From the NCBI GenBank assembly GCA_026874595.1, contig CM049316.1, positions 15,441,839-15,505,838 of the forward strand: DNA of 64,000 nt, read 5' to 3'. Position 1 is the stretch's first letter. Each line of letters begins with the position of its first letter. This document shows, one piece after another, positions 451-46,522 of this stretch. The stretch is from Sipunculus nudus. Taxonomy: Eukaryota > Annelida > Sipuncula > Golfingiida > Sipunculidae. The notes under the pieces were generated by a model. It had not been told where the DNA came from, ran no database searches, and saw nothing but the letters and a program-made list of their open reading frames with translations. The position numbers and the translations under genes were made by a program.

Positions 451-1661
451 CTGCAATAGGCCAACAAACAAAAAGAAAATGGTTAAAAGATAACTTTTTT
501 TGTAGAGGTACATGGAACAGGTGAAAACAGAAACATAACTGCATGATCATTGATTTATTATAACCCTTAACCTGTGAGAGACAAGCCAAAAATTCTACCT
601 CTTCTTAATGTCTACAGCTTCACTAACAAGGCCATCAGGAACACTTTAGTATGCACACTGCAAAGTTACATATGTATTTATATGTAGGCCTATCAGACAC
701 ATGGAAAGGCCAACAGTTCTAGGGTTAGATATCTTTTTATACAGGTGTGATAAACCAAATGCTGAACAGATGAGAAACAGGAACACAGAAAAAAACTTGA
801 TAATAATTTTCCCCCATTCCAAACTGGATGTTTACTTGTGTCCTAGTTTTGTAACAGTCAAACCCTTCTCCACTATGAGGTGATTCATTGTATCATATTG
901 TCTTGTTTATTATGAAGCAAGTCTGGATGACTACAATGAAAAGCAGGCATCCAATAATTATTCTCAACAAACTAAACCTGGGGACTAATATAAACATGGT
1001 GTAAAGGGGTCATGTTATGTGAACCTGTGCTGTGGCCTCAAGTGTTTTGAGTGCTACCTGAGAAATAACAATAACAACAAGTAACAATTAGTGCCACATT
1101 CAATATGTGCCTGGTGATAACATAATGTCTGCAGGTGACACAAACTAGCAGCACTCTGTCTGTGTTGATTATATCAGCCATTCAGAACTAAATCCTTATA
1201 ATGAAGATATATCTATGTTCAAGATCTATATATAGCTGATAATAAAAGAAATGTTTGATATGCTTTATAAACCTGGCTTCTCAGCAATTACTTTTTTTAG
1301 GTGGGGAATGAAAAACTCAAAAAGCTATGTATAATAGCCAATCATGATCTTTTGATTGACTGTTATGACAGAAGTCAAAATATAACAATCTTGATATCTG
1401 TCTGATCTGAGGAATTTTTCTTTTAAATTCCCTGACTTTTCCAAGACAGAAAAAATGGTTGGGAACTCTGTAAAGCCACCCCTCACAGAACACTTTTTTT
1501 TATATATTCATAACCAATTAATGCAAATGAACCAATATTGCTTTTTATTGCTCTGACATAAATGAATACCTTACAGAAACATGTAAAACTTTGAATTTGA
1601 CCTAAATAACCTCATTTTATGGTTAGTCTGTGTTCAACACATAAGAAATTTCTTTTAATTT
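451..1661. other. AT-rich non-coding stretch
   Basis: I see no gene here. At 1405-1480 there is a short relic (AAATTCCCTGACTTTTCC) related to the element at 19.3 kb. The rest is unique AT-rich sequence. Confidence 0.6.
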
Positions 1662-2224
1662 TATCCCCAGACAAAGTCAGGATACTATGGTTTCAAGGTG
1701 GTCCCGCCGCCGGCGCAGTAAAATCTTGTGAGGAGGATAACTCAAAAAATATTTCACTGATCTTTTTCAAACTTTATATTTGTATAGATATAGGTAAGAG
1801 GACGAAGCCTATTAAAATGGGGTCATGACCTTTGCTAGGAGAGTGAACCTGACCTTGAATAGGTCCATTTTTTCTGAAAATAACACAAATTCTTAAATAT
1901 CTCAAGAAGGCTTGAATGGACTGGCCCAAAAATCAAGGTGACCGAAGATCTTGGATAGCCTTGTGATATGCTGGGTACTAGTGGCACCACCTATTACCCT
2001 TTTCTTGTTTTTACGCCTTTTAATACCCCCATAATTGCCACTTGACAATACTGTGAGCATTATAAGTCAAAAACTAATTGACAGATTTCTTTCATATTAT
2101 GAACATGTAGAGAGATGGGTTATGGGATGAGGTTTACCTTTACCATGAGAGTGGCCTTGACCTTTAATATTTCTATATTTGGCGAAAATCACACACCTCT
2201 TATGATGTCTCCAGTGTTGATAGC

Positions 2225-4515
2225 CATATGGATTTCAAACATGACTTATGTATGGCCCACCACTAAAGTAAGAACCCTATTGGTTCTAGGGTCATGAGGT
2301 CAAAGGTCAAGGTCACTGGACTCACATCTTTAAAGATATTGTGGATGCATTTTAAGTCAAACTTTTCATTCCAGGTCTTCCATCCATGTCAATTTTGGGG
2401 TCACAAGGTCAAAGGTCAAGGCCACAGGAGCTATCTGTCAAAAAATTAGTTTCCAGATGATAATTCCAGTTTTTCTTATGTTTGAATTTCAAACTTTTCT
2501 TATATGTGTCCCATTAAAAAAGCAAGATCCCAATTGATTTTGGGGTCAAGAGGTCAAAGGTCAAGGTCACAGAACACATCTTTAAAAGATTGTGGATGCA
2601 TTTTCAGCCAAACTTTTCATCTCAGACCTTTTATCTTGCAAATATAGTTCACCAGACAATAGAGGAAAACCCCTGTCCATTTGAGGGTTCAAGGTCAAAG
2701 GTGAAGGTTAAAGGAGCCCTCTGTCCAAAAATTAGGTTCCTGGATGATAATTCCAGCTTTGACTGATATATAGATTTCAAACTTGACTTATATATGGCCC
2801 ATCAATAAAGCAAGACCTCTACTGAATTTGAGGTCATGATGTAAGAGGTCAAGGTCACAGGACACACATCTTTGCAAAGATTGTGGATGCATTTTCAGCC
2901 AAACTTTTCATCTTAGACCTTTTATCTTGCACATATAGTTCACCAGCCAATAGAGGAAGATCCCTGTCCATTTTGAGGGCACAAGGTCAAAGGTGAAGGT
3001 CACAGGAGCCATCTGTCCATAAATTAGGTTCCAGCATGATAATTCCAGCTTGGACTGATATATGGATTTCAAACTGTGACTTATATATGGCCCATTAATA
3101 AAACAAGACCTCTATTGATTTCGAGGTCATGATGTCAAAGGTCAAGGTCACAGGCCGCACATCTGTAAAAGGTTGTGGATGCATTTTCAGCCACACTTTT
3201 CATTTCTGACATTTTATCTTGAACATATAGTTCACCTGCCAATAGAGGAAGACCCCTATCAATTTTTAGGTCACTAGGTCAAAGGTGAAGGTCACAGGAG
3301 TAATATGTCCAAAAATTTCCTGATGATTACTCCAGCTTGGAATGATATATGGGTATCAAACTTGACTTATATATGGCCCATCAACAAAGCAAGATTCCTA
3401 TTGATTCTGAGGTCATGAGGGCAAATGTCAAGATCACAGGACACACATCTTTGAAGAGATTGTGGATGCATTTCAGCCAAACTTTTCATTTCAGCCCTTT
3501 TATCTTGAAATATAGTTCACCTGCCAATAGAGAAAGACCCACTCTCCAATTTAAGGTCACCAGGTCAAAGGTGAAGGTCACAGGAGTTATCTGTCCAAAA
3601 ATTAGGTTCTGGGATGAATATTCCAGCTTGGACTGATACATGGATTTCAAACTTGACTTATATATGGCCCATCAATAAAACAAGACCTCTACTGATTTTG
3701 AGGTCATGAGGGCTAAGGTCAAGGTCACAGGACACACATCTTTGAAAAGATTGTGGATGCATTTTCAGCCAAACTTTTCATTTCAGACCTTTTATCTTGA
3801 AATATAGATCACCTGCCAATAGAGGAAGACCCACTCTCCAATTTAAGGTCACCAGGTCAAAGGTGAAGGTCACAGGAGTTATCTGTCCAAAAATTAGGTT
3901 CCGGGATGAATATTCCAGCTTGGACTGATACATGGATTTCAAACTTGACTTATATATGGCCCATCATAAAACAAGACCTCTACTGATTTTGAGGTCATGA
4001 GGGCTAAGGTCAAGGTCACAGGACACACATCTTTGAAAAGATTGTGGATGCATTTTCAGCCAAACTTTTCATTTCAGACCTTTTATCTTGAAATATAGAT
4101 CACCTGCCAATAGAGGAAGACCCACTCTCCAATTTAAGGTCACCAGGTCAAAGGTGAAGGTCACAGGAGTTATCTGTCCAAATATTAGGTTCCGGGATGA
4201 ATATTCCAGCTTGGACTGATACATGGATTTCAAACTTGACCTATATATGGCCCATCAATAAAGCAAGACATCTTTCGATTTTGAGGTCATGAGGGCAAAG
4301 GTCAAGGTCACAGTACAAACATCTTTGAAAAGATTGTGGATACATTTTCAGCAAAACTTTTCATCTCAGACCTTTTATCTTGCACATATAGTTCACCTGC
4401 CAAAAGAGGAAGACCCCTATCCATTTTTAGGTCTCAAGGTCAAAGGTGAAGGTCACAGGAGCCACCTGTCCAAAAATTCATTTCCTGTTGATAACTCCAG
4501 CTTGGACTGATATAT
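2225..4515 (+). repeat. ~291-bp tandem repeat with AGGTCA clusters
   Basis: About eight tandem copies, recognisable from TATGGATTTCAAACTTGAC near 2228, 2765, 3061, 3640, 3932 and 4223, with weaker copies between. Each copy has two clusters of AGGTCA-type half-sites, giving about 16 clusters roughly 145 bp apart (near 2289, 2399, 2542, 2687, 2831, 2978, 3123, 3267, 3410, 3555, 3701, 3847, 3991, 4137, 4283, 4430). Within a cluster the half-sites form DR1 (AGGTCAAAGGTCA), DR0 and extended TCAAGGTCA arrangements, which are the classic recognition forms of nuclear receptors. The copies at 3630-4200 are closest to each other. Confidence 0.85.
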
Positions 4516-4542
4516 GGGTTTCAAATTTGACTTATGTATTGT

Positions 4543-4935
4543 CCATCCATCTTGGAAAGTTTTTTCATAAACCATACAGGTGGTGCCACCTACCTTCCCA
4601 TTTTTGTAGAATAAATTAATACCCTTTTCTGAGGAGTGATTTGCTCTATTGGCCTAAAAATGGGCATATCCATAAATCTTGGACTCCTACATTTTGTACT
4701 CAAGACTGGTGGTACCATCTGCAAACGTTTTAGCGTGGCGTCCATCTGTACATATGCTTTTGGTGAAAAATGCTCATATCTCAGGATTTGTTCAAGGTAT
4801 TGGTCTGAAATTTGGCATGTCCATCCATCTTGGAAAGTTTTCACGTAAACCACACAGCTGGTGCCACCTACCTAACAGTTTCTGTAAAATAAATTAATGC
4901 TCTTTCCTCAAAAGAGATTCAACATATTGGCCTCC
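4543..4935 (+). repeat. 139/278-bp degenerate tandem repeat
   Basis: The block CCATCCATCTTGGAAAG followed by a GGTGCCACCTACC stretch occurs at 4543 and again at 4821, 278 bp apart. A half-period copy with CCATAAATCTTGGACTCC and GGTGGTACCATC lies near 4670-4720. The short open frames on both strands are by-products of the repeat. Confidence 0.7.
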
Positions 4936-5197
4936 ATATTTGGTGAAAAATATTGTTTTTCACATTGATAGATGGAAGAAACCATGGTCGCTTGCTAAGT
5001 GTCAGTATATGCTGATGAAGATGGGGTGGCCTATTCTTAAAGGGAGGGGGCATTTATTGTCTGGGGATACTATGGTACCTGTGGTGCCAAGAAATATCTA
5101 GTTAAATCTGCATATACTCCAGAACCTGAAATAACTTTGGACTGGTTGAATGCTGGATCTTAAAGCAAGGGAAGCAATACCAGTACCTTAAATAATT

Positions 5198-5335
5198 AGC
5201 TATGGTGACCATAGCTATCACAAAATTCCTTGAATTTTTTTGATATTCCTTAAAAATCACAGAATCCTATAAATCTTGAGGCATGCCAAGATTTTTCACT
5301 GACCAAAATGAAATAATTTTTCTTCTGACCACTGG
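5198..5335. mobile_element. relic of the TTCCCTGAC repeat family
   Basis: The right end (TTCTGACCACTGGCAACC) and the TTCCTTGAATTTTTTTGATATTCC interior resemble the better copy at 19,309-19,810. A near-perfect palindrome, TAGCTATGG-TGA-CCATAGCTA, sits at 5197-5217. Confidence 0.5.
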
Positions 5336-5700
5336 CAACCAATGCCCCTGGCATGTTTCTCATTTTCATATTACATGAGACCAGTTTCAAAATGGTTTGT
5401 AGTTGCTCTCAGACAGGTCATGTATTACTCTCCTTTCATTATTTATTGCCTCCTCAAGGAGGGTATGCATTCAGTCCCATTTGTGTGTTTGTTCAGAATA
5501 TTACTTGCACAATCATGAATGGAATCCCATGGAATTTCCAGGGCATCTTGGAAATGGGCCAGAGAAGACTCAATTAAATTTTGGTGTGGGTGCAGCTCAT
5601 GATTGAGATCCTGGAAGAACTTCCAGGAATATTTACAATTGTGCAGTCACATATGCCCAACTGAACATGGGAATACTGGCCGAATACATGATACAAAAAC
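5336..5700. other. unique sequence, no gene recognised
   Basis: Non-repetitive sequence between two mobile-element relics. Short overlapping frames exist in two phases, but neither has splice signals or recognisable protein content. Confidence 0.5.
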
Positions 5701-6330
5701 ACTATAGTCCGTTCCAGCACCCCTGTCCACCTGTTTTTTCGCGATTATCTCTACATAAGACAAACTTGCAAAATAATATTTGCACCAATGGCATGAAGAG
5801 GCAAAAGCGTAATTTTTGGTACCTTACCTACTAAAAATATAAATATTATTCACTTTAAGGCCTGGCTGACATATCTCATATATATCCGTGGTTCATGGCG
5901 TCCCTAATAAGTGGCCATTGTTTATCCTCCTTGGATATGGATATTAAGTAATGTGACATAACAGTGAAGCGCGTGCATGCGGAGAATACAAGTCACGCTG
6001 TAAACAGGGGTCGGGAGCTCTTGATTATTGGTCCCATGAATATGGGCACCTCTTTAGTAAGTCACGTCTATTATGATGTCATCACTAATCCCTGATATGC
6101 CCATTTCACAGATTAGTGGCACGATGTCGCTACAGAATAGACTTGTTACTCATAAAATGCTTTTAAATTGTTTATAGGAAAATGATATAAGGTACGCTAT
6201 TATTTCCATAACAGTTAATTACGCTTTTTCCTCTTTCTGCCCTAAGATCAAAAAGTTTGGACGTTCTTTGATTATCAAAAAAATAATCACGAAAAATCAG
6301 GTGGACAGGGGTGCTGGAACGGACTATAGT
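5701..6330. mobile_element. 630-bp MITE with 48-bp terminal inverted repeats
   Basis: The left end (5701-5748) and the right end (6283-6330) are inverted copies matching at 46 of 48 positions. Both begin ACTATAGTCCGTTCCAGCAC reading inward. If the element proper begins at TAGTCC, a TA duplication flanks it, as in the Tc1/mariner superfamily, but the palindromic CTATAG makes the boundary ambiguous. The interior has no transposase; a 66-codon minus-strand frame overlaps the right end only. It is a non-autonomous MITE. Confidence 0.85.
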
Positions 6331-8040
6331 TGGGGCAACATATGCATCAATGAACTTTGGAATATGGGCCATAAAGTTAATGAAAACTTAGCGTGCAGAA
6401 TACACCATTTTAAGGACTGCCCACATGATGGAGGACTGCATTCCTGAGAATGCATATTTCTTGTTTACATATATTAAATCCTGATTACAGGATTCAGTTT
6501 ACTCCTGAGAGGTGTAGAATCTGTTTACTGAATATTAAAATAAGCTCTCTTCAAAGCATCTTCCTGTAATTAATACAATATTGTTAAATGTTAAGTTGTA
6601 CAGTAATAAACCAAGTACTATCAGATAACTGTTCATAAGGAGACTTAATTTAGTGACAATCGTTAAAATGACAGAATTTGATCTTTGACCAAATTTAAGG
6701 CCAGTTCTAGCCATGCTAGAGTATTCTTTACCACACAGCTGTCAGCAATAGGCAGCACAGCCTCAGCTGCTGCAGAGAGATAAGGAAACAATAGTTCTTT
6801 TGATGCAATTCCCTAAAGATTCAATAAAATTTACTATGATATCATTTCATTCAGAAAAGTGCTTACATACAGAATATGTACTTTATAAACCCCTGTCTTG
6901 AAACCAAACAGAATCACAGTGAAAGATACCTTTCAACTAGATTACATAAAGATGAAGAAATTTTACATGTTTCCAACAAATATTACTTGAATGCACTTAG
7001 TGACTCCAAAAGCAGTAAAGCTTAATTTGAATCTGTATGCTGACAGGCCTCTATTATAAAATAAAGTTTTTGCAAGCTTTGAGCAGCTTCAACTGGGAAT
7101 AAGAATGGAGCAAACAGTCACAGGGTTCCAGCTGCTGTTCAAGATAACCTCTTGACATCCTCATGGTCAGCTCATCATTAATAATCTGCATCTGGGCTTC
7201 CCCATCTCCTAATCTTGAGCTTCTACATTAAATGTAAGTCCACAGTCTACTGAAAGGATCAACAACTGACACAGGCATCTAGGTATGACATCTGACTAAT
7301 AATAGGGTGTTAGTAGAAGGTCAGAAACATTTCAACGATGAATTCCCTCAAGTTTCTCTGAGAAATTTGACAAAAAGTTCCCAAAGAAACCAATCATGCC
7401 TCCTCACACTCCCAGCACGAGCATGTCATATATGTCAATTACTGCTACCATTAAGTTATACATCCGAGATATTCAAAACCAAATTGTGGCTTCCCAAAAA
7501 GTCCATTTGGTTTCAATACTTGTATATCTTTACAGTACCACCTACTGCATAAAGCTGTTCCTTCTTGGTCATTTATAATGCTCTGTATTTTCCAGATATT
7601 TAATTAATAGTCCAATATCAACAGCTTGCACCATGGAAAACTGATTCTCATCTTCATGCTATCACTCATCTCACGATTGTTCAATAAGGATCAAATCTTA
7701 TTATCTTATACAAATCATACTCCCCTTCTGCACCTATTTTCTTTATTCTACATCCACATGGCCAGGGGTGGTTATTTAATATAAGCTGCTTAATCTATGG
7801 CTGCTAATCTTGAAGCCTGAGGTGTTGCTGCTGGATCCTGAAGCTCTGATACCTGTAGGTTTTTTTCCTGATACAGACCTACAGAGACAGCTGTTTTAAC
7901 CATCCCACATCCTGTTCTCTCCTTTGATAGCCTGGAGATTACTAACACCTGGCAGGCCAGGATGCTGCCCTTGTTTTCTTATTGCATCATGTGAATATTA
8001 CATAATAAATAAAAAGGAGACAACTAGTATAGCACTCAGT
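6331..8040. other. unique non-coding stretch with two higher-GC islands
   Basis: I see no gene. Islands at about 6715-6790 and 7785-7990 are richer in GC and lack repeats, so they are candidates for conserved non-coding sequence. Around 7170-7200 there is a homeodomain-like CATTAATAAT in a similar block. Confidence 0.5.
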
Positions 8041-8690: not shown

Positions 8691-8716
8691 ACAGTTTCCA
8701 TTAAATTTCTGCTTAT

Positions 8717-10298
8717 ATATGGGTATTTCTACAAAAAATGTCGCATTTCATGTCCCGAAACTATATTTGTTACTGAGAAATTAGCAAATGCTAAAAATGA
8801 TATGAATAACTATTCAGATTGTTGCTAAAGATATAACCATTATTATGAGATAAAAATAATTTAAATCAGGGCAGAAATACATAAAGAAAAAAAGCTGCAA
8901 ATGTTACAATACCCTTAAATTTCCGTTGTCCCTTTCTCTCGGATCTTAAATTCAAAACAGCGTTTTTCTGTAACCACTGTTCCATTTATATAGATTTTGT
9001 TTTCCACGTTGTAACAGCGATGAATGTTTATTAAGATGATATTTTTGCTTGATTTTTCCTGACCGTTTTGTTTTTAATACAAAAATTTGGATATAAAAAG
9101 TAAATATTCTCGGCACCGTTACCTGACCTTTTGACCTTGGAGCGCGTGAACAGAAATCACTTTGCTGATGCAGGGAGCAGCGTTTATTAGAGTTCAGGAA
9201 ATTTTGTACACATAATCCACAATTAAATTTAGTAACTGTCATATCAGTGTTCTCTGTTAATCATTAAAGGGTTAAAAAAATCACTGTATGTTTATTTGGA
9301 CTCGACACCGTTACACCTGCGAAAAATAAACTGTCACATATAACACTTCGAAAATGGCTACCTCTTGTTGTTCTAGTAGTGATAACTTGTGCTGCCCTCT
9401 TAGGCACGGTATGGAAGTAATTTTTGTCCTGCATTTAATGTATAGATGAAAAAAACTCAGCACCGTTACCACTCGAAACCGTTACCTGCATGAAAAATAA
9501 CGGTGTTGAGAGCAAGGTAACGGTGTCGAGAACTTGGTATTAAAACAAATTATTGAAATAGAATTTGAAACATATTTTGGGCTAAATATTTTAAACATTT
9601 GCGTTTCTTCTATTCAAACAGGCATTTGCTTGTTTTATTACATAATACTGGTATTCAAGTAGTCACTACGGTTATTTTTACTTCAGAAGCTTGACTCCGT
9701 TACCTATGCTCAACACCGTTATCTATGCTCAACACCGTTACCCAGAGGATTTAAAACCATGTTTAAATTTTATTTTTTGTGGATTCAAAAAAATTATCAA
9801 GGTATTTCGACTTAAATTCTGAAGGTAGATGTACCAAAGTACTTTGTCCAGTAAATCCCTGCAAATGCACCCCTCTGGAAGCAAAAATAGGAATAGAGAC
9901 AATTTTTGTTTTCAAAAGTTAATTAAAAAGAAGAAAATATGTTCTTTTTTACACACTTTTTTTTGTTAAATTCATAGCTGAAATTTATTTTTTTATTTTA
10001 TCAAAGGCTATTAATTTTAATTTTATCGAAAATCACAAAAAAACCTAGTCAAAACAATGTCTGAAATGTGCAAGTGAGATTTTACTGCGTGTCACGGTGT
10101 CGAGAAAAAGGTTCATATTTTCCCCTTACCTGGACTATTTAAAAAAAAAAGGAAACTGAAAAGTGCACTACTTGCATTATTTTACAATTCTAACGATATT
10201 TTTCTACAAATTAAGTATTGTTATATTTAAATCAAGATTAAAAAAAAATCACCAAGAGAACCCTTGAAATGCGACGTTTTCTGTAGAAATACCCATAT
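8717..10298. mobile_element. 1.58-kb terminal-inverted-repeat element with internal ACCGTTACC motifs
   Basis: Terminal inverted repeats of 34 bp (8717-8750 and 10265-10298) match at 32 of 34 positions and read ATATGGGTATTTCTACA inward. The outermost ATAT may be part of the repeat or a 4-bp (or TA) target duplication. The interior is AT-rich, without a recognisable transposase; the longest frame is 96 codons on the minus strand (8952-9242) and matches nothing I know. About ten copies of a 13-15-bp motif, CTCGACACCGTTACC, are scattered in both orientations. I cannot assign a superfamily. Confidence 0.85.
9109..10104. repeat. dispersed CTCGACACCGTTACC motif cluster
   Basis: Forward copies are near 9109, 9301, 9456, 9472, 9692, 9709 and 9728. 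Inverted copies (GGTAACGGTGTCGAG) are near 9498, 9516 and 10092. The core ACCGTTACC/GGTAACGGT is strikingly GC-rich against an AT-rich interior. The pair at 9472-9530 forms an inverted arrangement that could fold. Multiple scattered copies inside one element would suit a DNA-binding protein, possibly the element's transposase. Confidence 0.8.
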
Positions 10299-13200
10299 GC
10301 AACCAACCACCTTATGTTATGTGGTTTTTCTGTTGCAATCAGGGCTGTGTTTACAAATAGCTTGTTGATAAACAAGTCCACAGTTCCATCACAGAAGTGT
10401 GATAAGAATTTATCCTAAACGTAATCACCAATAGATCATTAACATGTAAGCTGAGCAATCACACACGAAAAAAAAGGTAAATGTGGCAGCCTGTTCATTC
10501 TTGTAGCTTGTCTCTGCTTCCTGGGAGCAACAACCAAGCAGCCACACAAGGCGCTAGAAGGGTATTTGATCTGTATTTGCCTACTGCCCATGGCATGACC
10601 AGTATCACACAAATTCTATAGAAAAGGCATGTGAACAGCTGGCTATAAACATCACAGGGACCACAAAGCTGCCACTAATGACATGACACATACACAGAGG
10701 TTCACTGATTATGCCTGTAAGCAGTTGTTGTGTTGTGTCTTGAGGTTTAGACACAACTGATTAAGTACACATACCTTATATAAATTGGTTAGAAACAGGT
10801 GTACAGGCCTAGTATGTAACCACATAAACAGAAATAAACATCTTAAGGTGCATGCAGGCCTTAATTATTAGTGCACAACCCTAAACTTCAATCTCAGGAC
10901 TCAACTAATGCATGAGAACTAAAAAGCCTCCAGAAATCTGGTACCTGGTAATGGTATCCTTTAATAATATACTCAGGATATTTCAATTATGACAAATGAC
11001 CAGTGCACCTTCAATTACTGGGCAAATAACATGTTGTTAATATTATACAAAGACATGGAGAATAAACAATGTTTCTAATTATATGTCAGGCATAAACATA
11101 TTATACAACAGAAACAAAGAGTTTAAGGCAAAATCACCTTTACTGCCCTTGTCTTTGCTATATACAGAATGTGATTAAATTCATGATGACTGTATATGTT
11201 TATAGTTATATACAAACCTTTTACACAAATTTACAACAGCTCACACAGGTTACACAAATCAGAATCAGAAATTCATTATTTCTGATACCTTGATATCCCT
11301 AATTTACAAATTTTATGGTGTACTTTATTCAATTTACATAATTTTTGCATTAGACCATATGATTATCCTTTAAGGAAAAAAAAAACCAATTGGTGATTGG
11401 ATTTAGTTATATAGCTGTACATGAAAATAAGAAATTCATTATTTTTCCAGTAATTGTATCTCTAACATTTTGCTAGTTTACTTTTTTTTTAAATTTTATA
11501 TATTGGTGGCAATTAACAGATGAATTAGGTCATTCAATTATAACATCAAACAGTATTAATTAGGCTTAAAATCTACATGCTCCAGGTGCACCTTTGAAAT
11601 AAAACCTACATGCACCTAAAGATTTCAACATGCACCTTGTAAGACTAGTGAGAAAATTTGCTTGTTATGGAGTTTATGTTGCTCAAAGAATAGAAATGCT
11701 AATTTATGATTGTGATGTTTGTGAATAGTGAAAAAATAAGATACTGCACCAACATTTTTTTCATTGGTTATAAAATGTGAGCATGGTGCACCCTCCGTAT
11801 GATTTCTACCTGCAAAAAAAGAAAATGTACTTGCAAATGTGTACATGTTTATCCTCTATTTTGCATACTGTTAAAATGAAATCAGGAATATTCTTTTTTC
11901 AGATACATTGCATCCTGCAAGCAGCTTTCAGCTTACAGTTATCTGAATTCTTTAATTAACATGAATGCATTGGTGCGCTAAGAGTTTGGTCAATGTTTAA
12001 TAAGAACAATAAAGCCATATGACTAAAGTTTAAATTGCTGAATGATCCTTCCTTGATTTATATTTTAGTTATATTTCAATAATAGTCATGGCTGACATCT
12101 TTAAAAATCATATTTAAATATAGATTAGATATATCATTATGCTTCAGATATTGTCATTATCATTAATATTTATTGTGATATACTAACAGTTTTTTAGTTT
12201 TTTAATTTCTTGAAAACATAATGTCAATAAAGTTTTTCCGAATGTGTTGCAACACTGATTTTTTTACTTCTATATTAAGAGAGAGAGAGAGGATGACTTC
12301 ATTAATTAAGATGCCTGACATAAAATAGCATCTGATGTACTTGGCCTCTAGCAGCCATAGTGCATTCTCCCGAAATAATCCTTATAAGAACTGAAATTTC
12401 CTTGACAGGTATTATTTGTTTCTATTTTTATGTACCACATGATATCAGGTCCAATCTTCCTGAAAAGACTTTAACTACAGTCAGTCAAGCTGGATGTTTT
12501 TATGAGTGTGTCCGAAATTTCTGTAAAACGCCATGCACTCAAACTTCGCAGTGAACAATGATAGCAGTCATTTGTTAAGATTAACCAGCTTTATAAAAAC
12601 CTTGATCAGAAATGTCAAACGTACACAGCAGGCTAACCATCAGGCATGTGGTCCCCACCCACTCTCACTTTCAGGGGCCCTCAGGGTACCCAGCAGAACG
12701 ACAATGCAGCAGCCCACAAAAGCGGAGACCTCTGGCAGAGTGTACTAATGTGGCATAATACCAGTGCCCTCTGGATGTCTGCTAATTGACTTCAAAGGGA
12801 CTGTGTCCTGTTGACGTTATGCTTATTGCAAAATTTCATTATCTGCTTGAAAATTATTTCTTAATTAGTTATTTTCCTGTTCAAAATTACCACCAACCCC
12901 TTATTTTACAAGTTATTAATTAGACTTGATGATCCTGATTTGCACCATATTTTTAACATAATAATCATACAGGATTTGACATTACCCCAACCCATGGAGA
13001 CAACGCCTTTGCATTTTGTTGTAACAGACCTACCTTATGATTCAATGTGTGATGTTCTAGGTAACTTATGTTTGTAATGGTGTATTTAGGCTTCTTATAT
13101 TGGAATTCATGGTGTCTCTTAGTGTAATAATGATGTGTTTTTTTGCATGAACATTCAGCCATTAATCTATGGCACTTATTTATGTGAAAATTAGTGGTTA

Positions 13201-13958: not shown

Positions 13959-16790
13959 AAGGCCTACAGGCCTAATGCGAATCTGTGCAAATTTTGGGAG
14001 TATGAATGGAGGTTCATTTTTAAAATTTATTTTTGATCCTAATGTCCTGCATATATCTACCTTAGTCATTATGATTTCAGCAAAATGGATGTTTTGGACC
14101 TGCAAGTTTTGGACTAGGACATTTTAAAACTAGAATATAGGTAGTCGAAAAGCGACTATGTGTATCCACCAAAAAACAGAGTGGGATGGGTGAAGTGAGG
14201 CATGGATTGAGTGGCAAGGGGAAATAGAGTGAGGTGTGTTGCATATTAGCATGGATGTCTGCAGCCAAATTGTGTATGTAGGTTGCCCACCTACCACAAA
14301 ATCCAGAAAGCTGTCCAAGCTGTATAAAAATGCAAAATTTCAGGCAGATCAGTCAAACCACTACTTGCATATGAGTAAACTTATCCCACAGCAGAAAACA
14401 GAAGGACGCTGTGCAAAAATGGTGGCACCACCAATCTTGTGTATGATTAAGAGCTTTGTGAGATCTATACACATGCCACATTTCAAAGGGGATATGTTAA
14501 ACCAGCCCTGAGATATAAGCCGGAATGTGTGCGGCGTAAACATAAATGTAGTTGGCCCCACCTGCCCCAAAATCCAGAAAGCTATCCAAGATGTATAAAC
14601 CTGCAAAATTTTAGGCAGATAAGTCAAACCACTGCCGAGATATGAGTGATTTTATCCCATGGCAGACAAACAGATGGACACTGTGCACAAATGGTTGCAG
14701 AAGGCGCCACCAGTTTTGCATATGATAAAGAGCAATGTGAGATCTATACACATGCAAAATTTTGGCCCAATCGGTCAAACGATTCTTAAGATATGAGCTT
14801 GGATGTCTGCAGTGTAAACGTGAATGTAGGTGGCCCCACCTGTCGTAAAATCAAGAAAGCTGTCAAGGATGCATAAACCTGCAGAATTTCAGGTGGATAA
14901 GTCAAACCATTGCCGATATATTTGTGATTTTATCCCAAGGCAGATGAACAGATGGATGATGTTGCAAAAATGGTTGCAGATGGCACCACCAGTTTTACAT
15001 ATGATGAAAACCTATGTGAAATCTATACACATCCTAAAGTTTGGCCCAATTGGTCAGATGGCTCCCGAGATATGAGCTTGGATTTCTGCAGTGTTAACGT
15101 GAATGTAGGTGGCAACTACTGTAATAAAATCAAGAAAGTTATCCAGGATGTATACACATGCAAACTTTCAGGTTGATAAGTTCAACCAATGCACAAATAT
15201 AAGTGATTTTATTCCAAGGCAGGTGAACAGTTGGATGCTGTGCAAAATGGTTACAGGTGGCGCCACCATTTTTAGAGTATGTTATAAAGCTATCTAAGGG
15301 CTACATTTGTGCAAAATTTATAGCCTGATCGGTCAAAAGGTTCCCAAGGTATGTGGGTTTATGTGTGGAAACAGACGCACAAATGGACACTGGGCAGAGA
15401 GGAAAGGTCAGAGGACAACCAAAAATGAGGGCGCAGCAGTTCACATGTGACCTGATCATAATCCTAAATTTAAAAAAAATCTGCCCAGTGGTTATGAAGG
15501 AGTTCTCAAACCTATGCAGCGGCAGCAGCATCCGACTGAAAACATACTATCCGCAAAACTCTGTTTTGGCGGATACAACTAGGATGTATCAGTCAGGGTG
15601 GATTATTTGGACAGATGAACGGACAATTTGGCAGCATGGTTTCAGAGAAGGACATTTTTGAATGTTTTAACTACTTTCCTATAAAATCTAAGAAAATGCA
15701 GTTAGCCAAGAAATAAGCAAAATCCCATAGAATTTTTAGATGACAAATTTTTAGCAAAAAATTTGGTGATGTTAGCTCCTACCCTTTTTGAGATAGCTAT
15801 GACGCACGACAGAGGATGGAAGACAGACAACGCCACACCAGTGCATAAGGTCACAGATTCGCTAAAATGGCAAACCCAGTTTTTTCAAACAGTTGAAAGA
15901 TATTGTTCTAATAGTTCCAATCTGGGCATTCTGCGTATGTCCATACGCTGTGTCAAGATGTCCAAACACCTTGTCTAGACACCAGACAGAGCCAGGTCAG
16001 TTGCCATGATGATGTCTAAATCCCATCTGGTTGTACTGAGCAATCTCTTGACTTGGCTGCTGAAACTGGGCATGTTGTCAAATCTGTTCTCAAACACAGA
16101 AAGCGTTTTTTCGATTGGCTACACTGCTTTTTTAAAGCTGCATTTACCCAATCTTTTCTTATAAAACTGGCAGAACCCTACCATAGCATAACTCTTGTAA
16201 AGTTTGAACTGATCAGCTTAACGGTTTCATCATAAAAACAGTGTATAAGCTAGAAGAGTCTAAAATTAAATTTTCGCTTGTAAAAAACAGGTCAATGTAG
16301 GTGGTGCCACCAACACCTCAATTTCATATATGACTTATATTACAAACATTGGCATAATATTTGGGGATGATAGCTCCAGCCATTTATGAGATTTTAATTT
16401 TAGTGTGCTTTTTTGGACAGATGACTAAGTTCAACCTCCTGTAACAAAAATCACTGAACTGGAACCATTTGAACAAACTTGAGAGATATTGTTCCAGGGA
16501 ACATTTCTGTGAAATATGGGACAATTTGGCTGGACAGTTTCGGAGAATAAGGTTTTTAAAGGTTTTTTAGCTTTTTCTCTATAAAATCTAATTTAATGCA
16601 GATACCCAATAATAAGCTCTAAGGCACCAATTTTCACATGTGACTAATTCTTACATGTAATTTTGTGCTGCTAGCTCTGACACTTTCTGACTTACAGCCA
16701 TGGACAGCAGACAGAAAAGCCCTGGACGGCAGACAGCAGACGGCGAACAGAAGACGCCGCGCCATCGCATAAGCTCACAAGTTCGCTAAC
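13959..16790 (+). mobile_element. pearl/Helentron-like element, family 2 (long copy)
   Basis: It starts with AAGGCCTACAGGCCT, a small hairpin, and ends CATAAGCTCACAAGTTCGCTAA after a GGAC/GACGGC-rich stretch (16,703-16,755). Tandem cores of about 270-279 bp occupy 14,250-15,360, marked by GTAGGTGGCCCCACCTG-like blocks at 14,278, 14,548, 14,826 and 15,105. A second repeated block, with CAATTTGGCnGGACAGTTTC and a TCCTATAAAATCTAA-like stretch, occurs at about 15,590-15,870 and 16,300-16,790. A shorter relative sits at 28,993-29,929. The frames in it follow the repeats and are not genes. Confidence 0.75.
14250..15360 (+). repeat. ~278-bp core tandem repeats
   Basis: Four copies, each with a CCAGAAAGCTGTCCAAG-type block, AGGCAGATAAGTCAAACCA, and a GGTGGCACCACCA hairpin-like stretch half-way. 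Copies are about 75-85% similar by eye, so this is an old array. Confidence 0.8.
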
Positions 16791-22768: not shown

Positions 22769-24156
22769 ACTAGATGTGTCGGAACGACACAAATGCCCCC
22801 GCCTGGGGCAAATTAGAAACATTTGTTAAATTTTGTAAATTTTTTTAAGTTCAGGAGATGTCGTATGGTCAAAAGTAGGTCAACAAGGGCAAAATGCAAA
22901 CTCGATTTGTAAAGGGTCATTATCAAGCAACACACCAAAATCAGGCCATTATCTGCAGGCATTGTGAAAAAAGTCCATACATGTGCATTTTACATAAAAA
23001 TTTCTGTCTTTCATGAAATTTTCTATGTTCAGGATCTGTCATATGGTCAAAAATAGGAGCCGTAAAATGGTCAAAAGTAGGTCAACTGGGAAGAAACGCC
23101 AACTCGATCTGTAACTGGTCATTATCTGCCCACACACCAAAAATCAGGCCAATATCTGCAGGCATTGCGAAAAAAAATCCGTACATGTGTATTTGTCATG
23201 AAAATTTCTATTTTTTCATGAAATTTTCTAAGTTTAGGAGCCGTAAAACAGTCAAAAGTAGATCAACTGGGACAAAACGCAAACTTGATCTGTAACTGGT
23301 CATTATCTGTCAACACACCAAAAATCAGGCCAATATCTGCAGGCATTGCGAAAAAAAGACTGTACATGTGTATTTGTAATGAAAATTTCTATTTTTCATG
23401 AAATTTTCTAAGTTTAGGAGCTGTAAAACAGTTAAAAGTAGGTCAACTGCCACGAAACGCTAACTCAATCTGTAACTGGTCATTATCTGCCCACACACCA
23501 AAAATCAGGCCAATATCTGCAGGCATTGCGAAAAAAAAGTCCTTACATGTGTATTTGTCATGAAAATTTCTGTTTTTCATGAAATTTTCTAAGTTAAGGA
23601 GCCGTAAAACGGTCAAAAGTAGGTCAACTGCCACGAAACGCGAACTCGATCTGTATCTGGTCTTTATCTGCCCACACACCAAAAATCAGGCCAATATCTG
23701 CAGGCATTGCGAAAAAAAAGTCCTTACATGTGTATTTGTCATGAAAATTTCTGTTTTTCATGAAATTTTCTAAGTTAAGGAGCTGTAAAACGGTCAAAAG
23801 TAGGTCAACTGCCACGAAACGCAAACTTGATCTGTAACTAGTCATTATCTGCCATCACACCAAAAATCAGGCCAATATCTGCAGGCATTGCGATAAAAAG
23901 TCCGTACATGTGTATTTGTCATGAAAATTTCTATTTTTCATAAAATTTTCTAAGTTTAGGAGCCGTAAAACGGTCAAAAGTAGGTCAACTGCAACGAAAC
24001 GCGAACTCAATCTGTAACTGGTCATTATCTGTCCACACACCAAATATCTGCAGGCATTGCGAAGAAAAGTCCGTACAACTGTTTGATTTCGGAATGACGG
24101 AAGGACGGACATGGGTAAAACTATATGCCCCGGCCACTTTGTGGCGGGGGCATAAA
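22769..24156 (+). mobile_element. pearl/Helentron-like element, family 3
   Basis: The 5' end is ACTAGATGTGTCGGAACGAC and holds a perfect 7-bp stem (TGTGTCG, loop GAA, CGACACA; 22,775-22,791). Then ATGCCCCCGCC follows, the inverse of GGCGGGGGCAT at the 3' end. Six to seven core repeats of about 181 bp follow, marked by AGGAGCCGTAAAA at 23,056, 23,237, 23,417, 23,598, 23,779 and 23,959. Near 24,090 there is a GACGGAAGGACGGACA stretch, then a 14-bp hairpin with one mismatch (24,124-24,154) and an A-rich end. Frames of 65-136 codons on the minus strand are products of the core repeats. Confidence 0.8.
22860..24075 (+). repeat. ~181-bp core tandem repeats
   Basis: Units contain GGTCAACTG, ACTCGATCTGTAACTGGTCA, a CACACCAAAAATCAGGCC stretch, and GCAGGCATTGCGAAAAAA. 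The period is constant (180-181 bp), near one nucleosome repeat. The units at 23,420-23,860 are the most alike. Confidence 0.85.
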
Positions 24157-33108: not shown

Positions 33109-34740
33109 AACAAGAGCACCGCAATTGGTGCATAATATGCCCGTTGCATTAATATGTGTGAATCTGCGGAGAAAGTAATTCAGATGAGAAACTGTATTGA
33201 TTATTAATCATCATGATACATAAGTAACATTATATTAACATCCATAAGATTTTTGGTAAGTCAGGGTGGTAAGTATGGTGATCCCTGACCTCATTTGATA
33301 TGCATAGATTATTTGAAGGAAATAAAACCTAGGTGTATGAGATATTATATTGAATAATATTTCTATTGAGTTTTTTAACAAGTGACCCATGGGTCATGAA
33401 GCTCAGCTGACAGGGAAGAGATTCGCAAAAGGAAATTTTATCATCCGAATGGTAGTATATACCCATTCAACTGAAGCATCAAACAGATTAACCAACAGGC
33501 CAAGATTGTGTCTGTATTAATATATCTCAAAAATAGAGAAAAAATGTGTAAACTTAAAAAAATACAGATAGCTCCATAAGTCTGCAGAAACTAATAAAAA
33601 CACTTAATGGTCAATGTCCATGCAAAGAATCATGGTGATCTCTGCATTAGTTGTTCAGATACTTCAGCTTTTGCATCAAATTTTCCATTATTCTAAGGTA
33701 TACTTGGGAGTCCTATAGCTTAGAGGATATGGGTAACAGGGACCTAATTTCAGGTTTCCACAGACACTTTTCATGGGCCTCCTTGCATGACAAGAATGAA
33801 GATTCTGGGTCCAGTTGTTACAATTTGTGCCATGTTAACAGATGACAGCATCCTTACAGGTCTCAAAAATAGAGAAAAAAATTTGAAAAACTGAATAAAA
33901 TAAAGGTGGCACCACCAGTCTGCAGAAACTGATGAAACACTCCATAATCAATATCCATGCAAAGAATTATGGTGATCTCTGCATTGGTTGATCAGATACT
34001 TCAGCTTTTGTATCAAATTGTCCATTATTCTGAGAGATACTTCGGAGTCCTATAGCTTGAAGGATATGGTAAACAGAGACCTAATTTCAGGTTTCCACAG
34101 ACACTTTTCATGGGCCTCCTTGCATGACAAGAATGAAAATTCTATGTACAGATGTTACAATTTATATCCTGTTGACAGATAACCACATTTTAAAAGGTTT
34201 AAAAATAGAGAAAAAAATTCGTAAAAAATCTAAAAATACAGATGGTGCCACCAGTCTGCAGGGACTGATGGTACATCTCATGATCATTTTGTATGCCAAA
34301 AATCATGACCATCAGTGATGTAGTTAATAAGATATTGAAGTTTTTGTATGAAATTTTTTACTATTCTTGGGGGTATTTTGGGGCCCCATAGCTCAAAGGA
34401 TATGGGTAACAGAGACCTAATTTCTGGTTTCCAAGGAGATATTTCATGGACCTCTCAGAATGTCAATTTACAAGTTTCTAGGTCCAAGGGTTACGACTTG
34501 TGCCAGGTTAACAGACGGATGGACAGACAGACAGACGACAGACAAAGGGTGATCGCTATAGATCAGATGACTTACAGTCAGCTGAGCTAAAAATCCATTA
34601 TATTCCTTGTACATGCATTACCTGGGCACCACAAATTGGTCTCTACAAAACAGCCTGGTGACCTCTGACCTCATTAAATATGCATGAATTTTGCTGAATA
34701 TTTAATTGAGGAGTAAGTAATCAAGGCGACACTAAAAAAA
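33109..34740 (+). mobile_element. family 4 element, interrupted by family 1 copy B
   Basis: The left end ACAAGAGCACCGCAATTGGT carries a GCACC/GGTGC hairpin (33,116-33,131). Left of the insert, a CCCTGACCTCATTTGATATG block lies near 33,281. Right of it, CTCTGACCTCATTAAATATG lies near 34,663. The two blocks look like two core units of one outer element into which copy B jumped. The right end is uncertain (about 34,740). Confidence 0.45.
33378..34592 (+). mobile_element. pearl/Helentron-like element, family 1, copy B
   Basis: The 5' end is ACAAGTGACCCATGGGTCAT with GCTCAGCTGA. The 3' end has GGACAGACAGACAGACGAC and then GATGACTTACAGTCAGCTGA with the A-rich end, as in copies A and C. Its core is different: three units of about 336 bp (near 33,637, 33,973 and 34,308) holding CAGATACTTCAGCTTTTG, AGGATATGGGTAACAG and GGTTTCCACAGACAC. 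Confidence 0.75.
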
Positions 34741-41593: not shown

Positions 41594-41665
41594 GGTCTCT
41601 GTGGTCTACAGGTAAAAGTGCAGGTCTTAAAGCCAGGAAATCTTGAGTTGGAATCCCAGCCAAGA
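41594..41665 (+). mobile_element. tRNA-derived SINE head captured in each unit
   Basis: A perfect A box, TGGTCTACAGG (41,602-41,612), and a one-mismatch B box, AGTTGGAATCC (41,646-41,656), sit at tRNA spacing. An anticodon-arm-like CAGGTCTTAAAGCCAGG lies between them, followed by CCAGCC. The same head recurs at every unit (offsets of 1663 bp, then 2035 bp to the sixth). The decayed B box suggests weak or no polymerase III activity. Confidence 0.75.
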
Positions 41666-42954
41666 AGAAGTGAGATATTCTAAGTTATCCCCCACCCAGG
41701 ATGAATGGCCTGCTGGCTTAATGACAACATTGTGCCTGACAATCAGGTTTCACACAAATATGAGTAAACCTCTCAGGGGTTCCTTGGTGTTAAATAAGTA
41801 CACCTTTCATGGGTCCCTTGGTGTTAAACAAATACATCTTTCATGGGTTCCTTGGAGTTAAACAAGAACATCTTTCATGGGTTCCTTGGTGTTAAACAAG
41901 AACACCTTTCATAGGTTCCTTGGTGTTAAACAAGTGCACCTTTCATGGGTTCCTTGGTGTTAAACAAGTACACCTTTCATGGGTTCCTTGGTGTTAAACA
42001 AGTACATCTTTCATGGGTTCCTTGGAGTTAAACAAGTGCACCTTTCATGGGTTCCTTGGTGTTAAACAAGTACACCTTTCATGGGTTCCTTGCAGTTAAA
42101 CAAGAGCACCTTTCATGGGTTCCTTGGTGTTAAACAAGTACACCTTTCATGGGTTCCTTGATGTTAAACAAGTACACCTTTCATGGGTTCCTTGGTGTTA
42201 AACGTGTGCACCTTTCCGGAGTTCCTTGGTGTTAAACAAGTACACCTTTCATGGGTTCCTTGGAGTTAAACAAGTTCACCTTTCATGGGATCTTTGAAGT
42301 TAAACAAGTGCACCTTTCATGGGTTCCTTGGTGTTAAACAAGTACACCTTTAATGGGTTCCTTGGTGTTAAACAAGTACATCTTTCATGGGTTCTTTGAA
42401 GTTAAACAAGTACACCTTTCATGGGTTCCTTGCAGTTAAACAAGAGCACCTTTCATGGGTTCCTTGGTGTTAAACAAGTACACCTTTCATGGGTTCCTTG
42501 ATGTTAAACAAGTACACCTTTCATGGGTTCCTTGGTGTTAAACGTGTGCACCTTTCCGGAGTTCCTTGGTGTTAAACAAGTACACCTTTCATGGGTTCCT
42601 TGGAGTTAAACAAGTTCACCTTTCATGGGATCTTTGAAGTTAAACAAGTGCACCTTTCATGGGTTCCTTGGTGTTAAACAAGTACACCTTTAATGGGTTC
42701 CTTGGTGTTAAACAAGTACACCTTTTATGGGTTCCTTGGTGTTAAACAAATCCCCTGGAGTTAAACGAGTGCACCTTTCGTGGGTTCCTTGGAGATAAAC
42801 GAGTGCACCTTTCATGGGTTCCTTGGAGTTAAACGAGTGGGTTCCTTGGTGTTAAACAAGTGCACCATTCATGGGTTCTTTGGTGTTAAACAAGTACACC
42901 TTTCATGGATTCCTTGGTTTTAAAGAGTGCACCTTTCATGGGTGTCTTAGTGTT

Positions 42955-43040
42955 ATGACCCAGCAAATGTGGCAGATTACACGTACAGTCCCACATGTGT
43001 GAAAAGTTTGGTTGACATCAGCTGGGTAAACAATGTGTCA
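42955..43040 (+). repeat. 86-bp spacer inside the unit
   Basis: A monomer-free insert starting ATGACCCAGCAAATGTGGC and ending GCTGGGTAAACAATGTGTCA. Its ends GACCCAGC and GCTGGGT are inverted to each other. It recurs in each unit at the same place, and a diverged version lies at 52,154-52,250, outside the monomers. Confidence 0.85.
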
Positions 43041-43196
43041 CCATGGATTCCTTAGTGTTAAACGAGTGCACCTTTCATGGGTTCCTTGGTGTTAAATGAT
43101 TGCCTTCTCATGGGTTCCTTGGTGTAAAACAAGTGCACCTTTCATGGGATCCTTGGTGTTAAATGAGTGCACCTTTCATGGGTTCCTGTGTGTTAA

Positions 43197-44859
43197 ATAT
43201 ACATTTGCCAGCATTGAATCTGCACTGCGAGTCAGTACATGAATGTCAACCTGACTGGTCTCTGTGGTCTACAGGTAAAAGTGCAGGTCTTAAAGCCAGG
43301 AAATCTTGAGTTGGAATCCCAGCCAAGAAGAAGTGAGATATTCTAAGTTATCCCCCACCCAGGATGAATGGCCTGCTGGCTTAATGACAACATTGTGCCT
43401 GACAATCAGGTTTCACACAAATATGAGTAAACCTCTCAGGGGTTCCTTGGTGTTAAATAAGTACACCTTTCATGGGTCCCTTGGTGTTAAACAAATACAT
43501 CTTTCATGGGTTCCTTGGAGTTAAACAAGAACATCTTTCATGGGTTCCTTGGTGTTAAACAAGAACACCTTTCATAGGTTCCTTGGTGTTAAACAAGTGC
43601 ACCTTTCATGGGTTCCTTGGTGTTAAACAAGTACACCTTTCATGGGTTCCTTGGTGTTAAACAAGTACATCTTTCATGGGTTCCTTGGAGTTAAACAAGT
43701 GCACCTTTCATGGGTTCCTTGGTGTTAAACAAGTACACCTTTCATGGGTTCCTTGCAGTTAAACAAGAGCACCTTTCATGGGTTCCTTGGTGTTAAACAA
43801 GTACACCTTTCATGGGTTCCTTGATGTTAAACAAGTACACCTTTCATGGGTTCCTTGGTGTTAAACGTGTGCACCTTTCCGGAGTTCCTTGGTGTTAAAC
43901 AAGTACACCTTTCATGGGTTCCTTGGAGTTAAACAAGTTCACCTTTCATGGGATCTTTGAAGTTAAACAAGTGCACCTTTCATGGGTTCCTTGGTGTTAA
44001 ACAAGTACACCTTTAATGGGTTCCTTGGTGTTAAACAAGTACATCTTTCATGGGTTCTTTGAAGTTAAACAAGTACACCTTTCATGGGTTCCTTGCAGTT
44101 AAACAAGAGCACCTTTCATGGGTTCCTTGGTGTTAAACAAGTACACCTTTCATGGGTTCCTTGATGTTAAACAAGTACACCTTTCATGGGTTCCTTGGTG
44201 TTAAACGTGTGCACCTTTCCGGAGTTCCTTGGTGTTAAACAAGTACACCTTTCATGGGTTCCTTGGAGTTAAACAAGTTCACCTTTCATGGGATCTTTGA
44301 AGTTAAACAAGTGCACCTTTCATGGGTTCCTTGGTGTTAAACAAGTACACCTTTAATGGGTTCCTTGGTGTTAAACAAGTACACCTTTTATGGGTTCCTT
44401 GGTGTTAAACAAATCCCCTGGAGTTAAACGAGTGCACCTTTCGTGGGTTCCTTGGAGATAAACGAGTGCACCTTTCATGGGTTCCTTGGAGTTAAACGAG
44501 TGGGTTCCTTGGTGTTAAACAAGTGCACCATTCATGGGTTCTTTGGTGTTAAACAAGTACACCTTTCATGGATTCCTTGGTTTTAAAGAGTGCACCTTTC
44601 ATGGGTGTCTTAGTGTTATGACCCAGCAAATGTGGCAGATTACACGTACAGTCCCACATGTGTGAAAAATTTGGTTGACATCAGCTGGGTAAACAATGTG
44701 TCACCATGGATTCCTTAGTGTTAAACGAGTGCACCTTTCATGGGTTCCTTGGTGTTAAATGATTGCCTTCTCATGGGTTCCTTGGTGTAAAACAAGTGCA
44801 CCTTTCATGGGATCCTTGGTGTTAAATGAGTGCACCTTTCATGGGTTCCTGTGTGTTAA
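43197..44859 (+). repeat. satellite unit 2
   Basis: Shares the early-block variant of unit 1. Private change: GAAAAATTTGG in the spacer where other units have GAAAAGTTTGG. Confidence 0.95.
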
Positions 44860-46522
44860 ATATACATTTGCCAGCATTGAATCTGCACTGCGAGTCAGTA
44901 CATGAATGTCAACCTGACTGGTCTCTGTGGTCTACAGGTAAAAGTGCAGGTCTTAAAGCCAGGAAATCTTGAGTTGGAATCCCAGCCAAGAAGAAGTGAG
45001 ATATTCTAAGTTATCCCCCACCCAGGATGAATGGCCTGCTGGCTTAATGACAACATTGTGCCTGACAATCAGGTTTCACACAAATATGAGTAAACCTCTC
45101 AGGGGTTCCTTGGTGTTAAATAAGTACACCTTTCATGGGTCCCTTGGTGTTAAACAAATACATCTTTCATGGGTTCCTTGGAGTTAAACAAGAACATCTT
45201 TCATGGGTTCCTTGGTGTTAAACAAGAACACCTTTCATAGGTTCCTTGGTGTTAAACAAGTGCACCTTTCATGGGTTCCTTGGTGTTAAACAAGTACACC
45301 TTTCATGGGTTCCTTGGTGTTAAACAAGTACATCTTTCATGGGTTCCTTGGAGTTAAACAAGTGCATCTTTCATGGGTTCTTTGAAGTTAAACAAGTACA
45401 CCTTTCATGGGTTCCTTGCAGTTAAACAAGAGCACCTTTCATGGGTTCCTTGGTGTTAAACAAGTACACCTTTCATGGGTTCCTTGATGTTAAACAAGTA
45501 CACCTTTCATGGGTTCCTTGGTGTTAAACGTGTGCACCTTTCCGGAGTTCCTTGGTGTTAAACAAGTACACCTTTCATGGGTTCCTTGGAGTTAAACAAG
45601 TTCACCTTTCATGGGATCTTTGAAGTTAAACAAGTGCACCTTTCATGGGTTCCTTGGTGTTAAACAAGTACACCTTTAATGGGTTCCTTGGTGTTAAACA
45701 AGTACATCTTTCATGGGTTCTTTGAAGTTAAACAAGTACACCTTTCATGGGTTCCTTGCAGTTAAACAAGAGCACCTTTCATGGGTTCCTTGGTGTTAAA
45801 CAAGTACACCTTTCATGGGTTCCTTGATGTTAAACAAGTACACCTTTCATGGGTTCCTTGGTGTTAAACGTGTGCACCTTTCCGGAGTTCCTTGGTGTAA
45901 AACAAGTACACCTTTCATGGGTTCCTTGGAGTTAAACAAGTTCACCTTTCATGGGATCTTTGAAGTTAAACAAGTGCACCTTTCATGGGTTCCTTGGTGT
46001 TAAACAAGTACACCTTTAATGGGTTCCTTGGTGTTAAACAAGTACACCTTTTATGGGTTCCTTGGTGTTAAACAAATCCCCTGGAGTTAAACGAGTGCAC
46101 CTTTCGTGGGTTCCTTGGAGATAAACGAGTGCACCTTTCATGGGTTCCTTGGAGTTAAACGAGTGGGTTCCTTGGTGTTAAACAAGTGCACCATTCATGG
46201 GTTCTTTGGTGTTAAACAAGTACACCTTTCATGGATTCCTTGGTTTTAAAGAGTGCACCTTTCATGGGTGTCTTAGTGTTATGACCCAGCAAATGTGGCA
46301 GATTACACGTACAGTCCCACATGTGTGAAAAGTTTGGTTGACATCAGCTGGGTAAACAATGTGTCACCATGGATTCCTTAGTGTTAAACGAGTGCACCTT
46401 TCATGGGTTCCTTGGTGTTAAATGATTGCCTTCTCATGGGTTCCTTGGTGTAAAACAAGTGCACCTTTCATGGGATCCTTGGTGTTAAATGAGTGCACCT
46501 TTCATGGGTTCCTGTGTGTTAA
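44860..46522 (+). repeat. satellite unit 3
   Basis: First unit with the GTGCATCTTTCATGGGTTCT then TTGAAG variant before the first GCAG monomer, shared with units 4-6. Private change: GGTGTAAAACAAG near 45,894. Confidence 0.95.

Follow-up and report, generated by a model that had tools for sequence, protein, structure and literature searches.

A 64,000-nucleotide stretch of Sipunculus nudus DNA (hereafter the window) contains, at 8721-10294 on the plus strand, a 1,574-bp non-autonomous DNA transposon with terminal inverted repeats (TIRs), which we defined from its TIRs, its target-site duplications and the reading of multiple copies. Within it lies an array of ten GGTAACGGTGTYGAG-type motifs, seven on the minus strand and three on the plus strand, at uneven spacing. 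This is a well-defined, real element of a known kind, bearing an unusual internal array. On balance we lean towards a reading in which the element is moved in trans by a Sola2-like DDE-type transposase and the motifs are putative sites for one protein, most likely the transposase itself or an accessory protein. The boundaries of the element are:

8717..8720, no strand: left target-site duplication ATAT (4-bp direct duplication, perfect in 20 of 21 copies)
8721..10294, plus strand: non-autonomous TIR DNA transposon, 1,574 bp
8721..8750, plus strand: left TIR, 30 bp (351 genome matches at ≤3 mismatches, control 0)
10265..10294, minus strand: right TIR, 30 bp (inverted-arm search, copy comparison)
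10295..10298, no strand: right target-site duplication ATAT (copy comparison)

An earlier, sequence-only reading of this DNA had described terminal repeats of 34 bp. Inverted arms are indeed present (detected at 8710-8750 and 10265-10305, with 32 of 34 positions identical across 8717-8750 and 10265-10298), but the 34 bp resolve into a 30-bp TIR and a 4-bp ATAT duplication. Comparison with other copies identified the outer four bases at each end as the target-site duplication, and the element is therefore 8721-10294 with a TIR of 30 bp, identical at 28 of 30 positions. Its ends have the form GGG...CCC and carry GGGTATTTCTACA. The AT-rich body noted in the same reading is reflected in a G+C content of 31.5% over the element interval, against 36.0% for the window.

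Target-site duplications were determined from 21 copies read with their flanks, namely the window copy and 20 others ranging in length from 1,569 to 1,588 bp. A perfect 4-bp duplication lies directly outside GGG...CCC in 20 of the 21, the exception being L097, with flanks CATG/CAGT. The duplications are 92.5% A or T; 13 of the 20 have the form A..T and seven do not (p = 5e-9 for 13 of 20, assuming independent bases and A = T = 0.32), and ATAT alone accounts for six. Consistently, T directly precedes GGG in 75 of the 100 exact TIR matches listed (of 351 at ≤3 mismatches), with a base other than T in 25. The sequence-only reading had called this a mobile element and proposed that its target duplication be determined from many copies; the recurrence of perfect 4-bp duplications around many dispersed copies bears out the first point and supplies the second.

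Genome-wide, copies were sought in the 1.43-Gb assembly (153 contigs). Querying with the element gave 344 candidates, of which 40 were scored; 38 of these, the window copy and 37 further ones with identities of 94-97%, are near full length, and the remaining two are partial or split. A search for the TIR, also proposed in the earlier reading, returned 351 matches at ≤3 mismatches and none for the reversed control. The ends are thus not confined to this site, and since each copy has at most two ends, the matches represent at least 176 copies or fragments. The 21 copies read differ from their majority sequence by 0.4-2.7% and are therefore young, while older relatives at 70-89% identity indicate that the family was mobile long ago as well. 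Three family copies (L117, L176 and L179) have internal deletions, L117 joining approximately position 135 to 853, so that shorter derivatives also exist. A MITE in the narrow sense (mostly <500 bp) is excluded by the copy length of 1,569-1,588 bp, and the earlier remark that the element is unlike ordinary MITEs was a fair one for a 1.6-kb element with an internal motif array.

The motif copies in the window element, obtained by mismatch search and, for copies 5, 7 and 10, also by comparison among family copies, are:

9109..9123, minus strand: motif copy 1, GGTAACGGTGCCGAG
9301..9315, minus strand: motif copy 2, TGTAACGGTGTCGAG
9456..9470, minus strand: motif copy 3, GGTAACGGTGCTGAG
9472..9486, minus strand: motif copy 4, GGTAACGGTTTCGAG
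9496..9510, plus strand: motif copy 5, AATAACGGTGTTGAG (family majority AATAACGGTGTCGAG)
9516..9530, plus strand: motif copy 6, exact GGTAACGGTGTCGAG
9690..9704, minus strand: motif copy 7, GGTAACGGAGTCAAG (family majority GGTAACGGAGTCGAG), first of three at 19-bp spacing
9709..9723, minus strand: motif copy 8, GATAACGGTGTTGAG
9728..9742, minus strand: motif copy 9, GGTAACGGTGTTGAG
10090..10104, plus strand: motif copy 10, TGTCACGGTGTCGAG (family majority TGTAACGGTGTCGAG)

The count of about ten, the two orientations and the uneven spacing were all as first described. At ≤3 mismatches GGTAACGGTGTCGAG occurs ten times in 8717-10298 (nine times at ≤2) and not at all in the 62.4 kb outside that interval, where a single match appears at 4 mismatches; in 100 first-order Markov sequences of the element it was absent at ≤3 mismatches and averaged 0.09 occurrences at ≤4. 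The array occupies the centre of the element, its first site lying 388 bp from the left end and its last 190 bp from the right end, and the motif is absent from the TIR. Information per column is high over the 15 positions and drops at both edges, the flanks being mostly unrelated, which argues that the motif copies are not remnants of a longer unit, with the exception of two local tandem sets at 19-bp (9690-9742) and 20-bp (9496-9530) spacing. In the family majority every one of the ten sites keeps TAACGG and GAG unchanged and variation is confined to positions 1-2 and 9-12, the pattern expected for a bipartite binding site. Single-strand DNA folding of 9440-9560 exceeds that of shuffled sequences (z -4.2), a consequence of the inverted motif pairs and hence not separate evidence; folding of 9095-9760 as RNA is weaker (z -2.0).

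The sequence-only reading had offered either an array of binding sites for a transposase or host factor, or decayed coding repeats. No Pfam family was found in six frames of the window copy up to an E-value of 5, and the longest ATG-started frame per copy is 52-96 aa among the 21 copies. A minus-strand frame of 73 aa spans motif copy 1 and recurs in 14 of the 21 copies at one position (element positions ~314-532). In L098 it is 71 aa long, the window copy has a version of 96 aa whose tail differs, and at ≥60 aa the frame is absent from L091, L096, L103, L104 and L107. It has no Pfam match, and its recurrence is expected from copies that are ~99% alike; we take it as a chance frame in near-identical copies, though a small peptide is possible. 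Together with the short tandem stretch at 9697-9742, this frame is what would speak for decayed coding repeats or for a minisatellite unrelated to the transposon. We regard both as highly improbable: besides the Pfam results for the six frames and the 73-aa frame, conservation stops at the edges of the 15 bp, the motif lies on both strands with mostly unrelated flanks, and in the full-length copies read the motifs occur alongside TIRs. From its sequence features, the array appears to fit protein binding better than coding debris or a minisatellite, so that the first of the two original suggestions is favoured, although the bound protein was not found.

The motif itself was also searched across the genome, as had been suggested, and the result ties it to the family. 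Exact matches to GGTAACGGTGTYGAG number 289, where the reversed control gives 4. Of the 100 listed, 98 lie in or beside family members, being either ≤1.7 kb from a listed family TIR or part of a fetched stretch alignable to the family, and the remaining two show a spacing of ~214 bp, that of the family. Sixteen loci were fetched around motif matches that had no listed exact TIR nearby, and every one could be aligned to the family, with identities of 70-97%. Exact motifs in a non-family context number 18, against 4 for the control, and 14 of the 18 lie in family copies by coordinates. Among the matches listed, the motif thus belongs to the family. Neither of the two outcomes named in the sequence-only reading as counting against it was obtained, the ends being dispersed and the motif being no local minisatellite separate from them.

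This distribution bears on whether the array instead recruits a host transcription factor, of Myb type or another, and serves as an enhancer, promoter or insulator while the transposase sees the TIRs alone. Repeated sites for a host protein are how the gypsy insulator works, and enhancers and insulators tolerate sites in both orientations, as found here; the central position of the array away from the ends, a TIR without the motif and a TAACGG core that presumably resembles Myb sites all suit such a role. With 98 of the 100 listed matches in or beside the family, however, host use of the full 15 bp elsewhere is not seen, and we consider recruitment of a host factor unlikely, if the most serious alternative to a protein that belongs to the transposition system.

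Older copies allow the age of the array, and any constraint on it, to be judged. L157, which was chosen for one exact motif site, aligns to the young family over 1,317 bp at 77.7% identity. Nine of its sites can be aligned there, each departing from those of the young family at 0-4 positions, and the tenth is gapped. Judged by this alignment, the arrangement of the array is evidently old. Single sites are gapped in the older copies L148, L156 and L157 and two in L164, and several are missing or badly decayed in some older copies, such as L171 and L147. Constraint was measured as non-CpG changes in the motif sites compared with the rest of the element. In the young copies (n = 21) the counts are 21/2436 in the motif and 368/28648 in the rest (p 0.07); in six older copies, with L121 left out of the sum as the same copy as L120, they are 25/483 and 452/5778 (p 0.04). 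A hand-picked set of ten TIR-selected copies of lower similarity gives 41/774 and 891/9981, a motif count as low being reached in one of 2,000 window permutations. For 14 motif-selected older copies (14 of 18 motif-fetched loci, the four nearest the young family being left out and three possible recruiting sites dropped) the values are 71/804 and 1053/10089, which is not significant (permutation 0.23). Some copies belong to more than one set: the ten include four of the six older copies, and the 14 include two. The direction is the same in all sets and the strength is mixed; since most changes in a dead copy arise after insertion, strong constraint is not expected.

A further possibility is that the motifs have no present function, having multiplied within a single ancestor of the family through local duplication, inversion or conversion and been passively inherited since. 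The two local tandem sets are plainly duplications, and the sites gapped in L148, L156, L157 and L164 and the mixed constraint would be natural for passengers of this kind. The similarity among the dispersed motif copies, however, ends sharply at 15 bp and takes in little flank, TAACGG and GAG are kept at the ten majority sites where other columns vary, and the TIR-selected older copies show fewer motif changes; we find a purely passive array doubtful, and continue with the reading of the motifs as protein-binding sites.

No autonomous partner or transposase for the family was found in TIR-based searches, which covered mainly the first 100 listed of the 351 matches, and the longer relative with a transposase that the sequence-only reading had hoped for was not among the TIR ends examined. 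Three long-spaced TIR pairs occur among the 100 exact matches listed, and all are family copies split by later insertions. L138 is split by a Bel/Pao-type retrotransposon (Pfam Peptidase_A17) at 1129-8003 with an open frame of 1,902 codons, whose nesting shows that the element has been struck by later insertions; L139 is split by a 4.16-kb repeat without a frame >100 codons, and the copy in L140-L142 is split at least twice. The last includes a ~16-kb insert (L140:1118-10000 and L141:1-6942) whose inverted ends are CATAGACATAG. A stop-to-stop frame of 395 codons within it matches PF21787 (TNP-like RNase H); judging by these features, the insert is apparently a large P/THAP-type element. A further long TIR pair, C15:26857294 and C15:26874756, is 17.4 kb apart. 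The start of the TIR followed by a non-family base gave 35 matches (control 2), and all ten fetched carry family sequence, L165 just the last 48 bp; the first 13 bp with a different continuation gave 26 matches against 20 for the control, which is attributable to chance. Nine further TIR ends comprise three full copies (L175, L177 and L180) and six that are truncated, deleted or interrupted. For one of these six (L172, L181), ~7 kb past the break contained no frame of ≥100 codons and no second end, and in L143 the right 463 bp, at 82%, are followed by 7.4 kb without family sequence. Outside the animal genome, the exact motif was found at 78 loci in viral contigs, with one match each; with ≤3 mismatches allowed, none of these loci had more than four sites, and the TIR was absent from the 12 best. 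The sole viral match to a tandem motif pair (L079) reads as a coding repeat in a phage-like contig and was judged a coincidence. The TIR pattern had no match in viral contigs or in prokaryote genome contigs, and the motif pair had none in prokaryote genomes.

Other repeats are present in the window, and in general aspect they may resemble molluscan ones. Positions 41763-52154 are occupied by ~10.4 kb of a 34-bp minisatellite comprising ~300 units organised in a higher-order repeat. Frames of 76 aa, identical or nearly so, recur at intervals of 1,663 bp at 41631, 43294, 44957, 46620 and 48283, and there is another at 50318. Tandem arrays of medium length lie at 2392-4547, 14243-15273, 23054-24048 and 33525-34454, with periods of ~292, 279, 181 and 337 bp respectively, and a translated stretch at 34339-34587, in and just past the last of these, closely resembles one in the 4.16-kb repeat of L139. 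Ten longer window frames outside the element had no Pfam match above the cut-off, and no RNA family reached its gathering score in the window.

With regard to classification, the sequence-only reading could not place the element in a superfamily. Its duplication, 4 bp long, A/T-rich and mostly A..T in form, is best fitted by Sola2; membership in that group is plausible, though no transposase was found in the TIR-based searches. Sola1 and Academ also have 4-bp or 3-4-bp duplications. Duplications of 4 bp, A/T-rich and of AWWT type (ATAT, AAAT, ATTT), are described for Sola2 in the portion of PMC3627910 available to us, which also reports short TIRs and derivatives without most of the transposase, all of which our element resembles. 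It differs in its TIR, of 30 bp against 12-21 bp in the examples given there, in that no Sola transposase was found in the TIR-based searches, and in its motif array, which that portion does not mention for Sola2. According to the part of PMC4455052 available, membership of a Sola2 family rests on terminal bases (positions 1-11) common to a classified family.

Several other groups were excluded on ends or duplication: Kolobok and piggyBac by the occurrence of a TTAA duplication in none of 21 copies; Tc1/mariner and ISL2EU (2-bp TA or AT duplication) by a 4-bp duplication in 20 of 21; PIF/Harbinger (3-bp TAA/TTA) and MULE and hAT (7-12 bp or 8 bp) likewise by the 4-bp duplication; and Ginger and IS481EU (TG..CA or TNT..AYA ends) by the GGG...CCC ends. 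CACTA/EnSpm, which needs CACTA/CACTG ends and a 3-bp duplication, is excluded by GGG...CCC and 4 bp. It nevertheless offers a likeness in its TNPA-type short motif repeats, direct and inverted and in part GC-rich, which are taken as sites for an element protein in the part of PMC4219821 consulted; those motifs are subterminal, whereas ours are central in an element without CACTA ends and the 3-bp duplication. In Aedes MULEs, as far as the available part of PMC5225508 describes them, Muta1 has nine copies of a 12-bp repeat, related families have repeats of 9-15 bp, and there are hundreds of non-autonomous derivatives; their duplications, however, are 8-9 bp and their repeats are tandem and inside long TIRs. 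The KolobokP solo LTDRs of PMC9587614 are similar, in the section available, in their RR...YY ends, 3-5-bp duplications, abundance in molluscs and want of coding capacity, but measure ~450 or 660 bp with TIRs of 11-18 bp, against 1,574 bp and 30 bp here. A KolobokP solo repeat is accordingly excluded by the copy length of 1,569-1,588 bp and the 30-bp TIR, and no flanking KolobokP body was seen in the stretches read. In the available descriptions of the elements compared, a dedicated array well inside the ends has no counterpart. A full-text literature search for the letters of the motif or TIR found no paper (Repbase being outside that search), and in a word search for a similar layout the element was not recognised in any of the papers listed.

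Having no transposase gene, the element would be moved in trans. A DDE-type transposase from elsewhere would cut at the GGG...CCC ends, and the cut ends would be joined to staggered 4-bp targets that are A/T-rich and mostly A..T, a Sola2-like specificity. The ten motifs would be sites of one sequence-specific protein making two contacts, TAACGG and then GAG four bases on, and that protein would most likely be the trans-acting transposase or its accessory DNA-binding protein, as suits a motif found in the family alone among the matches listed. The placement of the motif, 190-390 bp from the ends and absent from the TIR, suits a regulatory or accessory role over end recognition. Loading on the array may build or favour the transposition complex, or may silence the element. 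The TAACGG half matches what we take to be the Myb-type core YAACKG, which makes a Myb/SANT-type domain the best guess for the protein, as a lead only. A role of this kind is proposed for the repeated subterminal motifs of CACTA elements. A more speculative proposal, which we rate as improbable, is that the ten-site bipartite (TAACGG-N4-GAG) array, so far met in this family alone and kept throughout its long history, acts apart from TIR recognition, as an internal transposition enhancer or as an array that captures a host Myb-type protein and so times mobilisation.

What was an anonymous repeat is now a defined family with known ends, a target rule and a minimum copy number. Each copy of this young and numerous non-autonomous element offers ten internal replicates from which the likely protein-binding sites can be read. 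Should the transposase prove to be what binds the motif, the motif would point the way to the autonomous partner; should a host factor bind it, ready-made regulatory arrays would be spread over the genome by the element.
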